A model generated the notes under the pieces. The model was not told where the DNA came from. It saw nothing but the letters and a program-made list of their open reading frames with translations, and searched no databases. The translations under genes and the position numbers were made by a program. From positions 1-54,665 of the forward strand of contig JAAFJH010000005.1 in assembly GCA_013298875.1 (NCBI GenBank): a DNA stretch of 54,665 nucleotides. Reading direction: 5' to 3'. Below are positions 1,662 to 46,497 of the stretch, in pieces (within the stretch, counting starts at the first letter, position 1; the number at the start of each line of letters is the position of its first letter). Source of the stretch: Synechococcales cyanobacterium bin2.concoct.b11b12b14.033 (GTDB lineage: Bacteria; Cyanobacteriota; Vampirovibrionia; Caenarcaniphilales; Caenarcanaceae).

Positions 1662-1802
1662 TGTCTGAATGACAGATAACGCAGATTGTCTTGAACTGGG
1701 ATTACGCTGATTAAATGATGAACTATGATTTTTATTTTATGGTTTTACTCTAAAGTACATAATCATGGTAATTCATAAATCATTTAATCCTGATTCAAGA
1801 CG
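1662..1802. repeat. Dispersed repeat, MITE-like copy 1
   Basis: This block begins with a half-repeat (TCTGAATGACAGATAACGCAG), continues with GTCTTGAACTGGGATTACGC and TGATTAAATGATGAAC, and ends with a degenerate inverted copy of its start (ATTCAAGAC). It matches 26781-26924 over almost its whole length, including the central ATGATTTTTATTTT and GGTTTTACTCTAAAGT. A truncated inverted copy lies at 45691-45763. No reading frame is evident. It is probably a non-autonomous mobile repeat. Confidence 0.75.
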
Positions 1803-1805
1803 AGA

Positions 1806-1875
1806 GAGCTTTAATTTAGGTCAGAAAAATTGTGCATAAAAATCCATGTTATCTGTGCTAGTCTGCGATTCAGAC
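1806..1875. repeat. Dispersed repeat R1, copy downstream of rpn
   Basis: The block runs from GAGAGAGCTTTAATTTA to GTGCTAGTCTGCGATTCAG. The same beginning and end recur in the same orientation at 2741-2798, and the end recurs at 3311-3357. This copy and the one at 2741 bracket the rpn gene as direct repeats. Function is unknown; it may be a recombination site or the footprint of a mobile cassette. Confidence 0.7.
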
Positions 1876-1877
1876 AA

Positions 1878-2691
1878 TTACAATCCTTCAATTTCTTCTT
1901 GCGTTAAGCCAGTTAATTTAATAATACTATTCAAATCCAAGCCTATTTCTTTAGCATTTTTTGCTATTTCCAATTCCCTTTTCAAAAGAAGTATCTAAGC
2001 TATTTTTCCAATCTCTTTTTGCTTTTAAACTATCTTCATAAATTTGTTTGTTTGGTCTGTCATACCTTGCTATTTCCCCTATTTCAAATACTTCTTTAAA
2101 TATTTTTTCTTGTAATTCTGGTGGTATATTTTCTAGCTTTGGTAAGTTTTTTATTATATAAATCCATTTCTCAAAATGACTCTCTAATTCAGCTTGTTGT
2201 TTATTAAACTTTGGTATTTCTAAATATATAAAATTTAATTTATTACTAAAAATCTTGTTAGTTTCTGTATTCATAAGTTTTACCCGATGAATATAATTGC
2301 TACTCTCTTTTTCCATCACAAAGTCCATAATTGCAATAGTATAAACTGCATTAAACTTAAAGTCCCAATCGCCTTTTAGAGCTTGTTCTTGAATTGGAAA
2401 AGTTGCATAATAAATACTTTTCTGTTTAAAAAATGCTTGCTCTGCCTTCTGAAGCTCGACTATAAATTTTTCACCGGTATTACTTTCACAATAAATATCA
2501 TAAATGGCTTTTCTGTCCAGCTGAGACATTCCGAGCTTTTCCGTTTTCAAATAAGTTAAATTGATTATTTTGCCTTTTTCTTCTTCCAATAAACTATTCA
2601 AAAAGTCGATTAAAAGCTCTTTGTTGGCTTCTTCCCCAAATATTTTTTTAAAACCAAAATCAGTCAGTAAATCAATGTATTTGTCGGGCAT
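1878..2691 (-). pseudogene. rpn: Rpn family recombination-promoting nuclease, frameshifted
   Basis: The product belongs to the Rpn/PD-(D/E)XK putative transposase family (nucleases that raise RecA-independent recombination). The N-terminus DLLTDFGFKKIFGEE is the family hallmark. The nuclease core is visible as AIYDIYC followed by FIVELQKAEQ (catalytic Asp and ExQ). The open frame stops at 1951 after 246 residues, but a one-base shift near 1975-1985 restores a typical C-terminal tail (ELEIAKNAKEIGLDLNSI, ending TQEEIEGL) that stops at 1878-1880. The last 30 or so residues are therefore out of frame. This is a real frameshift or a sequencing error; the catalytic part is intact. R1 repeats lie on both sides. 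Confidence 0.85.
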
Positions 2692-2740: not shown

Positions 2741-2798
2741 TGAGAGAGCTTTATTTTAGTCGGAGATTTCTATATCTATGCTAATCTGCGATTCAGAG
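2741..2798. repeat. Dispersed repeat R1, copy between rpn and hicBA
   Basis: The sequence runs from GAGAGAGCTTTATTTTAGTC to CTATGCTAATCTGCGATTCAG and matches the copy at 1806-1875 in the same orientation, with a shorter middle. It covers the region upstream of rpn and ends just beyond the hicA stop codon, so it forms the boundary between the two modules. Confidence 0.65.
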
Positions 2799-3310: not shown

Positions 3311-3357
3311 GCTGTGAAATCCGTGTTGTCTGTGCTAGCTAGTCTGCGATTCAGGCT
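3311..3357. repeat. Dispersed repeat R1, copy upstream of hicBA
   Basis: The segment contains AATCCGTGTTGTCTGTGC and ends TAGTCTGCGATTCAGG, in the same orientation as the copies at 1806-1875 and 2741-2798. It lies between hicB and the mscL 3' end. GCTAGCTAGT shows a small internal 4-bp duplication relative to the other copies. Confidence 0.65.
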
Positions 3358-3368
3358 AAAAGTATTTT

Positions 3369-26755: not shown

Positions 26756-26780
26756 CAAAAAAATAATTTGCCTTTTTCTG

Positions 26781-26924
26781 TCTGAATCACAGATGGACGC
26801 AGGTTGTCTTGAACTTGGATTACGCTGATTAAATGATGAACTATGATTTTTATTTTTACGGTTTTACTCTAAAGTGCTTAATCATGGTAATCCCTAAATC
26901 ATTTTAATCAGAGTTCAAGACAAC
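26781..26924. repeat. MITE-like element with 13-bp terminal inverted repeats, copy 2
   Basis: GTTGTCTTGAACT at 26803-26815 is repeated perfectly and inverted at 26912-26924, giving a 122-bp element without a reading frame. Inside, GATTAAATGAT and ATCATTTTAATC form a further near-inverted pair. A half-repeat, TCTGAATCACAGATGGACGC, precedes it, as in copy 1 at 1662-1802. This is the least decayed copy in the window. Confidence 0.82.
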
Positions 26925-27116
26925 AAAACTGTAAATCAAATATCAGAGTGCTCCCAAAGAAGGGGAACATAGTAACGCAAAACTACCCTCGCTTTTGAAT
27001 TGAAAATAAAGACTATCATGACTTTTAAAGTTCTTTCCTGAAGCACTTTCTCTATTTTTTCTCCGTCGAACTCACGTTAAATAAGATAAAAAAAGAAGAA
27101 TTTCGTCCAACTTACC
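26925..27116. other. Gap with a solitary IS982-type end
   Basis: No gene is visible. CGTCGAACTCACGTT at about 27064-27078 is the reverse complement of the end of the IS982 copy at 45764 (AACGTGAGTTCGACG). The sequence to its left is AT-rich and does not clearly match transposase, so this is at most an isolated IS end or a badly decayed copy. Confidence 0.5.
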
Positions 27117-36020: not shown

Positions 36021-36042
36021 CAACGATTGTCCGTAATTTCAT

Positions 36043-36152
36043 CAGCGTAATCCTACTTCAAGCTCATTAAAAGTTTTACCTTGGCTAAATACTCCATCTA
36101 TTTCGTGCAATCTCCATACAAACCAATCACTAGCTGTCCAATATTCGTAATT
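36043..36152 (-). pseudogene. Fragment of a HicB-like antitoxin
   Basis: The frame YWTASDWFVWRLHEIDGVFS followed by QGKTFNELEVGLR and a stop resembles the short HicB fold (strand, strand, then Q-G-x-T-x-x-E-L helix). Its upstream end is cut exactly at the IS982 end at 36153. The call rests on a short match. Confidence 0.45.
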
Positions 36153-36279
36153 AACGTGAGTTCGATGAGTAGATAAAAAGAAAATATCTACTAAACTATG
36201 ATTTGAAGCCCCTAGTCAAGGAGATAGAACTAATGTTAGCAGATTTAGTTTCAATATTTGTTAGTTTTGATGATTTTTT
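36153..36279 (+). mobile_element. Left-end fragment of an IS982-family element
   Basis: AACGTGAGTTCGATGAGTAG begins the fragment; it matches the reverse complement of the right end of the copy at 45764-46411 for about 127 bases, with a few mismatches. It includes the transposase start at ATG 36233 (MLADLVSIFVSFDDF). Identity stops abruptly near 36279, so the rest is deleted. The remaining 75 bases to the flavin reductase stop hold nothing recognisable. Confidence 0.8.
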
Positions 36280-45492: not shown

Positions 45493-45690
45493 ACTTTGAA
45501 AATTGAAGCTTAAATTTTATTCTATCTTAACTTAATTAATAATCATAATCAAATCTAACTTTTAAATAAGAAGTACCCGGAATGTTTATAGACATTTAAA
45601 AACCAATTTAAATATTTTTATGAAAAGTTGAAAACCTAAGATCTAACTTCCCTCCAAACCAAAAGCGAAGGAGATTAAATCATTTATTTT

Positions 45691-45763
45691 TGTCTGAATT
45701 GTAGATTAGCACAGATAATACGGATTACCATGACTAAGCACTTTAGAGTAAAACCGTAAAAAT
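45691..45763. repeat. Dispersed repeat, inverted truncated copy 3
   Basis: TGTCTGAATTGTAGATTAGC and ACAGATAATACGGATTACC match R1 in the opposite orientation. CATGACTAAGCACTTTAGAG followed by TAAAACCGTAAAAAT is the reverse complement of the centre of the MITE-like copy at 26781-26924. The match ends exactly at the IS982 end at 45764, so the IS inserted into this copy. The 200 bases between here and panD hold nothing else recognisable. Confidence 0.75.
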
Positions 45764-46411
45764 AACGTGAGTTCGACGGATAAAAAGGTTAAAAAGAAGC
45801 AATAGAAGGGAAATTTGAAAGATTCAGAGAGGGCTTTTTAGGTAAAAAAGAACAAGCAATTAATGCAGAAACCATATTTTCAAAAGCATTTACTGGTGAA
45901 CGATGCCTTGAATGCTCGATTTGACAAACATTTTTCAAAAAATCATTAACAGATTCTATAATTGCTCTCTTCCGGAGCATATCTTTCTCAATCACCGGAA
46001 CTAAAGAGTTCTTCATGTTTTTCTTTATTCAAGGTCAAAGCTTTAGAGCCTTGTTCCCTTACTTTTGTAACTAATGCATGTTCTCTAAACCCTGGTAAAG
46101 TAAGAGCGGATAGATAGATTTGCTCATTTAACTCACTTTATTTAAATATACATAATTTATTCAGTGTAACATTTTTCGAGCTTTGCAATACATAATTTTC
46201 CTTGCAAAACTGTCCTTCCTTATTCACTGCTAGCCCACAATTATACAAACACCCTTTCACTAATTTCTTCTTCAAACTGTTTACAAAAATCATCAAAACT
46301 AACAAATATTGAAACTAAATCTGCTAACATTATTTCTGTCTCCTTGCCTATGGGCTTCAAATCATAGTTTAGGAGATATTTTCTTTTTTATCGACTCGTT
46401 GAACTCACGTT
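45764..46411 (-). mobile_element. Internally deleted IS982-family insertion sequence
   Basis: The 648-bp element begins AACGTGAGTTCGACGGATAA and ends with the inverted form GAACTCACGTT. On the minus strand the right end encodes a transposase start (MLADLVSIFVSFDDFCKQFE) that soon stops, and the left part encodes the C-terminal end (MKNSLVPVIEKDMLRKRAII, ESVNDFLKNVCQIEHSRHRS, FLPKKPSL). IS982 transposases carry this R-K-R-x-x-I-E-x-V-N-D and I-E-H-S-R-H-R-S signature. A full element is about 1 kb, so roughly a third, including most of the catalytic domain, is lost. Not autonomous. Confidence 0.88.
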
Positions 46412-46497
46412 AAATATAGATTTCTGGACAAAATTAGTTTCGCTCTCCCAGAAGATTTGATTGAATATTTGGAAAATTAATTCTATTCTTTTGCGTT
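46412..46497 (+). other. Short coding-like relic beside the IS982 copy
   Basis: The plus frame reads FLDKISFALPEDLIEYLEN and stop. It looks like the end of a gene cut by the IS, but it is too short to identify. No other signal is seen before the glycosyltransferase stop. Confidence 0.3.

Follow-up and report, generated by a model that had tools for sequence, protein, structure and literature searches.

A dispersed 122-bp palindrome as the apparent empty version of nuclease-carrying palindromes, a possible unrecognised kind of mobile DNA

What kind of repeat is the short palindrome found in this contig, and what might have spread it? In the window, that is the whole stretch of 54,665 nucleotides that was analysed, the 13-mer GTTGTCTTGAACT forms a perfect inverted pair (26803-26815 on the forward strand and 26912-26924 on the reverse strand). 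An earlier note, made from the letters alone, had described a 122-bp MITE-like element with perfect 13-bp inverted ends, and the exact pair was indeed found at 26803 and 26924. The start that it gave for the segment, 26781, was misplaced: the bases from there to 26802 are the outer arm TCTGAATCACAGATGGACGCAG of a larger repeat, and the unit itself starts at 26803. The segment is a near-palindrome (minimum free energy of -39.7 kcal/mol; z = -7.3), and none of 200 shuffles was equally stable. The 13-mer alone was found 20 times in the window when allowing up to three mismatches (18.8 expected), which is not above chance, and the case therefore rests on the inverted pair and on the dispersed copies.

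We searched the source genome (G000; 2.15 Mb in 145 contigs, 92.8% complete) by BLAST with window positions 26775-26930. This yielded 37 matches (E ≤ 0.001), of which 11 were long (at least 100 of 156 query bases). Two of the long matches (L006 and L011) share a flank, lie on opposite sides of a 10-N gap and could represent a single copy. Within the window, the second copy proposed at 1662-1802 was recovered at 1662-1801 with 89% identity but with imperfect ends, and the inverted part proposed at 45691-45763 was recovered at 45719-45765 (96% identity over 47 bases). The unit thus presents the features of a MITE that had been claimed for it: it is short and non-coding, has terminal inverted repeats and exists in several dispersed copies.

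Alignment of the copies places the 122-bp unit inside a longer repeat, in which it usually lies directly after TCTGAATCACAGATGGACGCAG. Complete copies (window positions 1664-1874, L004 and L005) continue after the unit with a 3' part ending in GATTCAGACA and are framed by ends of the type TCTGAAT... and ...GATTCAGA. The same ends frame a separate family of about 149 bp that does not contain the 122-bp unit, copies of which were found with the same borders in G001, a relative from the same genus. The outer 5' end TCTGAATCACAGATGGACGCAG was found at 24 places of the source genome with at most three mismatches, compared to none for a reversed control pattern, and only 3 of these 24 places overlap the 11 long matches. 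The modules are not always found together, since both outer arms are absent from one copy (L010) and another is a mosaic of the 5' end of one type and the 3' end of another (L003). The earlier note had held that copies present only as part of longer duplicated regions would speak against a separate element. Most copies do sit within a longer repeat; that repeat, however, is itself dispersed with repeated borders. The features of the window are given in Table 1; the end of the insertion sequence (IS) remnant at which copy C stops, and which we take to be IS982-like, recurs at 27056-27079 and 36149-36180.

Table 1. Repeat copies and associated features in the window
Feature	Position	Strand
Copy B: complete composite, ends TCTGAATGACAGA / TCTGCGATTCAGA, 122-bp-type unit inside	1664..1874	+
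Rpn-type gene (PF12784, TIGR01784), between copy B and another outer end	1951..2691	-
Outer end, upstream of the Rpn gene	2773..2797	-
Outer-end fragment adjoining the mscL gene	3318..3361	-
Outer 5' arm TCTGAATCACAGATGGACGCAG of the larger repeat, common to the 149-bp family	26781..26802	+
Copy A: 122-bp palindromic unit with perfect 13-bp terminal inverted repeats	26803..26924	+
Outer 3' part, start only, truncated (compare the 3' parts of L004 and L009); border by eye	26925..26946	+
Inner-unit fragment, 27 bases, 89%	36036..36062	-
Copy C: outer 3' end and part of the 122-bp-type right half, up to the IS remnant	45690..45762	-
IS remnant, about 650 bp, 16-nt inverted ends, starting where copy C stops	45763..46412	

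Repeats of this class were found associated with genes of the GxxExxY family (PF13366, TIGR04256; PDDEXK_3). Among 40 related genomes, the gene was found in three (G000, G001 and G002; E ≤ 1e-5) and the element was matched in the same three and weakly in a fourth (G003); this co-occurrence is not independent evidence because these genomes are close relatives. All six GxxExxY genes in five genomes of the family (G000 contigs C22, C75 and C124, G001 contigs C4 and C11, and G002 contig C1) lie between repeats with TCTGAA ends or in the loop of one such repeat. The bracketing repeats are of three sequence types: TCTGAATCAGGATT at C22, the 149-bp type at C75 and C11, and TCTGAACC or TCTAAACC at G001 C4 and in G002. 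At C11, three 149-bp elements precede the gene and one follows it, in a tandem array whose spacers are short; the gene ends with a TGA codon that falls within the element end TCTGAATC. At C124, the gene is located in the loop of a single palindrome between two genes, presumably hsdS and hsdR. The left arm of this palindrome aligns to the 122-bp unit with a score of 16.5 (maximum of 16.0 in 1000 dinucleotide shuffles), and 4 of 1000 such shuffles were as good as its right arm. The GxxExxY gene of C22 is open and those of C75 and C124 are each broken into two frames; palindromes without a gene outnumber GxxExxY genes in this genome.

We then scored inverted arms around these genes in a sample of 386 genomes of the phylum (called Cyanobacteriota), in which PF13366 was detected in 63 genomes and the Rpn family PF12784 in 38 (E ≤ 1e-10). 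We scored 30 GxxExxY loci, one per genome from the 63 genomes, and the 27 usable Rpn loci out of 29 (L155 and L171 were left out due to a short flank or a missing stop codon). Arms had to lie within 100 bp of the start and stop codons, and the threshold was a score of at least 15. This threshold was reached at 23 of the 30 GxxExxY loci, compared to none of 42 neighbour ORFs from the same loci, and in 10 of 600 mononucleotide shuffles of these loci. It was reached at none of the 27 Rpn loci, nor was a threshold of 13, and by none of 48 neighbour ORFs of the Rpn genes. When loci with common flanks were merged, the median score was at least 15 at 11 of 15 GxxExxY sites. Several of the GxxExxY arms are of low complexity, and the 99.9th percentile of the shuffles was 21.5. 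With flanks of 350 bp and cross-locus pairs as control, the GxxExxY loci presented a median score of 23.5 relative to 10.0; only 5/30 of them (and 2/27 Rpn loci) passed the 99th percentile of the control (32.7), which is high since the same repeats recur at different loci. These results show that GxxExxY is a consistently bracketed nuclease gene, unlike Rpn. The arms most similar to the outer arm of the window were of the type ACGCAGATGTACGCAGAT (L201, L202 and L206), with a median score of only 14; in two of these loci (L202 and L206), the GxxExxY stop codon is closely followed by TCTGAAT, which resembles the outer arm in the window. The start codon of the gene in L206 is located inside the repeat, so that its protein begins with translated repeat.

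The same units were observed with and without the gene at fixed sites. In one cyanobacterial family (f19), 60 genomes were searched with one GxxExxY locus and the best 30 loci were fetched, which favours gene-bearing loci because those fetched are the best matches. The gene was found beside the host gene in 8 of these 30 loci, in one of which (L242) most of it has been deleted between the arms, and no gene was found in the other 22. One gene-less locus (L246) presents a clear palindrome, TTTTAAACGCAGAGTAAC...GTTACTCTGCGTTTAAAA, with a score of 18; shorter palindromes were recognised by eye in L253 and L261, but their score of 7.5 is no higher than that of some unrelated loci. A single site was thus seen in three states: without a palindrome, with a gene-less palindrome and with the gene in a palindrome. 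The gene and its 5' arm (query positions 742/744 to 1167-1242) were also found away from this site in seven genomes (G052, G327, G332, G409, G416, G441 and G444). Some of these insertions may go back to one further ancestral site, since the upstream flanks are similar in two of the genomes, G052 (L193) and G332 (L189). Outside the phylum, arms scoring at least 15 were found in three of eight records of a plasmid collection (Gemmatirosa, Bernardetia and Bacteroides). In Sphingomonas parapaucimobilis, fabD and fabG are separated by a GxxExxY gene that has an arm on its 5' side only; the two fab genes are adjacent in Rhizobium indigoferae and, judging by sequence, in S. paeninsulae (fabG is unannotated in that stretch). 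Overall, GxxExxY genes were present in records of six phyla.

The GxxExxY protein is a predicted nuclease. Residues D73, E83, K85, Q97 and Y101 and the GxxExxY motif are invariant in all 22 aligned proteins, and Pfam names the family PD-(D/E)XK. A QxxxY motif is typical of RecB- and Cas4-like enzymes. PADLOC returned weak Cas4b matches for one of the two GxxExxY proteins that were scanned (E = 5.4e-5). A sequence search of solved structures returned no relevant relative, and a phage search with the protein of G001 returned no match. In the open-access literature, so far as its text was accessible, we found nothing tying GxxExxY genes to repeats, and neither PDDEXK_3 nor six repeat strings gave a match.

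We consider it somewhat probable that the 122-bp unit belongs, as a non-autonomous palindrome lacking a gene, to a modular class of repeats whose gene-bearing form carries GxxExxY. In the gene-bearing form, the gene would occupy the loop of a palindrome or the interval between two repeats with TCTGAA ends, and the repeat ends would lie at or near its start and stop codons. We infer that the predicted nuclease recognises and cuts the hairpin or the TCTGAA ends. Such cutting might move both the gene-less and the gene-bearing forms, as the RAYT protein is thought to do for REPINs. The mosaics (the 122-bp unit inside ends of the 149-bp type, and Rpn, DUF3782-like or toxin-antitoxin genes between repeats) are best explained by insertion into resident copies and by recombination between them.

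The earlier note had argued that another transposase or an Rpn-type nuclease must move the unit, if it still moves. We chose 36 element places and assigned the 62 nearest ORFs to 84 families; no classical transposase with these ends, either Y1 or DDE, was found among the 25 families listed. Six families were seen more than once, including PDDEXK_2 (three times) and PDDEXK_3 (twice). An ordinary MITE, derived from a DDE insertion sequence that is absent from or unassembled in this metagenome-assembled genome, is consistent with the size, the inverted ends and the absence of coding capacity, and the assembly is incomplete (as described above). We nevertheless judge this origin quite improbable: no such parental transposon appeared among the families listed, the ends are nested and modular, and some forms carry a gene in the loop. 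Moreover, the target-site duplications that the earlier note advised looking for do not appear to be a general property: direct repeats of at least 6 bases flank 3 of 14 complete elements of the 149-bp type, when about one is expected, and in one of these cases the repeat merely marks where a tandem array ends. Another (L211 2532, on G001 contig C5) presents a direct repeat of 12 bases lying a few bases out, as might be expected from a MITE. The note also advised a search for empty sites; in G001 to G004, none orthologous to a 122-bp copy was found. The flanks of copy A are on different contigs of G001 (C9 and C3) and have no contiguous match in G002-G004, and matches to contigs C75 and C60 stop near their elements. 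Alternatively, a Y1 (HUH) transposase located elsewhere in the genome could move the repeats, as in REPINs or TIRtrons, with GxxExxY being incidental. According to the accessible part of PMC3733652, RAYT-like genes can be flanked by long inverted repeats that are also dispersed. This explanation remains improbable given the families found near the elements, which included neither type of transposase among those listed.

Rpn has more in its favour locally than in the phylum. In the source genome, 3 of the 6 intact Rpn genes (one of them assigned partly by eye) are located between such repeats, the gene of the window included, and in G001 a 122-bp copy lies roughly twelve bases downstream of the stop codon of an Rpn gene. 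The Rpn family, PDDEXK_2, is named 'nuclease family transposase' in the family list. However, none of the phylum loci presented bracketing inverted arms within 100 bp, which does not support Rpn as a general mover, and G002 has the repeat elements and no match to PF12784; that Rpn moves these repeats thus appears very improbable. A further possibility is that the repeats are passive landing pads, which spread in the past or by unrelated means, with homologous recombination or template switching shuffling them today and the bracketed genes being passengers. Genes of unrelated types do occur between copies (GxxExxY, Rpn, DUF3782-like and toxin-antitoxin genes), different repeat types form mosaics, and the tandem array of C11 has short spacers. 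In addition, a ParE-like toxin-antitoxin pair splits an element of the 149-bp type in the source genome (C60; L054 800-1530), and the element is uninterrupted at the likely counterpart in G001 (C187; L145), matched by one flank. Against this, GxxExxY genes are bracketed at start and stop codons in a phylum sample in which neighbour ORFs and Rpn genes are not, and a gene within one palindrome (C124 and the f19 site) differs from two full repeats flanking a passenger. We therefore regard the landing-pad explanation as rather unlikely.

The reading of the 122-bp unit as the gene-less form of a GxxExxY-carrying repeat fits the general layout of REPIN/RAYT and TIRtron systems, namely gene-less palindromes and a dedicated gene with the same kind of repeat, the gene here being GxxExxY. 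REPINs are likewise short, palindromic, non-autonomous repeats that form clusters, and their dedicated gene adjoins repeats (PMC3116915, accessible text). In contrast, RAYT is a Y1 HUH transposase, while GxxExxY is predicted to be a PD-(D/E)XK protein; RAYTs are described in the same text as single-copy, whereas the source genome has three GxxExxY genes, and the repeat ends read here showed no sign of the GTAG tag known from REPs. TIRtrons have a single gene in long inverted repeats and also dispersed gene-less families (PMC3733652, in the part available). Their gene, TIRYT, again encodes a Y1 transposase, and their TIR motif GGGGWSAS is absent from the ends read here. The intervening sequences of 23S rRNA genes, which the accessible part of PMC4990558 calls selfish elements, also carry an ORF (S23p) in the loop of a long stem, but the units described here lie between ordinary genes rather than in rRNA and encode a predicted nuclease.

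A broader reading, to which we give less than even credence, is that GxxExxY proteins are the mobility enzymes of widespread palindromic elements, in which a Cas4/RecB-like nuclease, rather than a transposase or an integrase, inserts hairpin units, the 122-bp unit being one of the gene-less forms. Insertion of units with or without the gene would then take place next to stop codons and within operons, across cyanobacteria and related lineages, Bacteroidota, Gemmatimonadota and, perhaps, Pseudomonadota. If the gene and the repeats form one element, the GxxExxY family and several repeat families would receive a single explanation, and this would constitute a class of bacterial mobile elements built on a PD-(D/E)XK nuclease and not on a transposase. 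The existence of sites in empty, palindrome-only and gene-bearing states makes the idea directly testable in a cultured cyanobacterium.

Several additional observations were made. A conserved RNA was considered and rejected: of 42 consensus pairs in the alignment of 13 of 16 copies, one presented changes on both sides, and the covariation score was unfavourable (+1.1). An Rfam scan of the window returned only a tRNA, and two element patterns had no exact match in viral contigs. A sequence scan for the repeat also matched, in fourth place, a Thiotrichaceae metagenome-assembled genome, which contains a palindrome of about 107 bases (TGTCTGAACTGTGATTT...AAATCACAGTTCAGACA) that has a 26-base core in common with the unit. 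At one site, the Rpn gene is intact in G000 (L031), whereas in G001 (L111) about 590 bases are missing from its 5' part. In one genus (g86) of family f19, four to seven Rpn genes form tandem arrays with a spacing of about 1 kb (G096:C1 2596293-2602907, G133:C1 and G272:C1). On contig C102 of the source genome, a DUF3782-like gene, below the Pfam cut-off (E = 0.0042), lies between two 122-bp copies (L004 864-1493); it presents a D...ExK motif, and three tandem relatives are found in G001 (L082 839-2941). Of the 62 ORFs closest to elements of the source genome, two matched HicA toxin and two matched UPF0150. Finally, a reading frame that we assume to be hsdS-like (L225 1939-3258) contains an in-frame stretch, presumably DUF559-like, in which CLPPNPLIGGTE segments are repeated; this resembles a further small nuclease that has repeats of its own.
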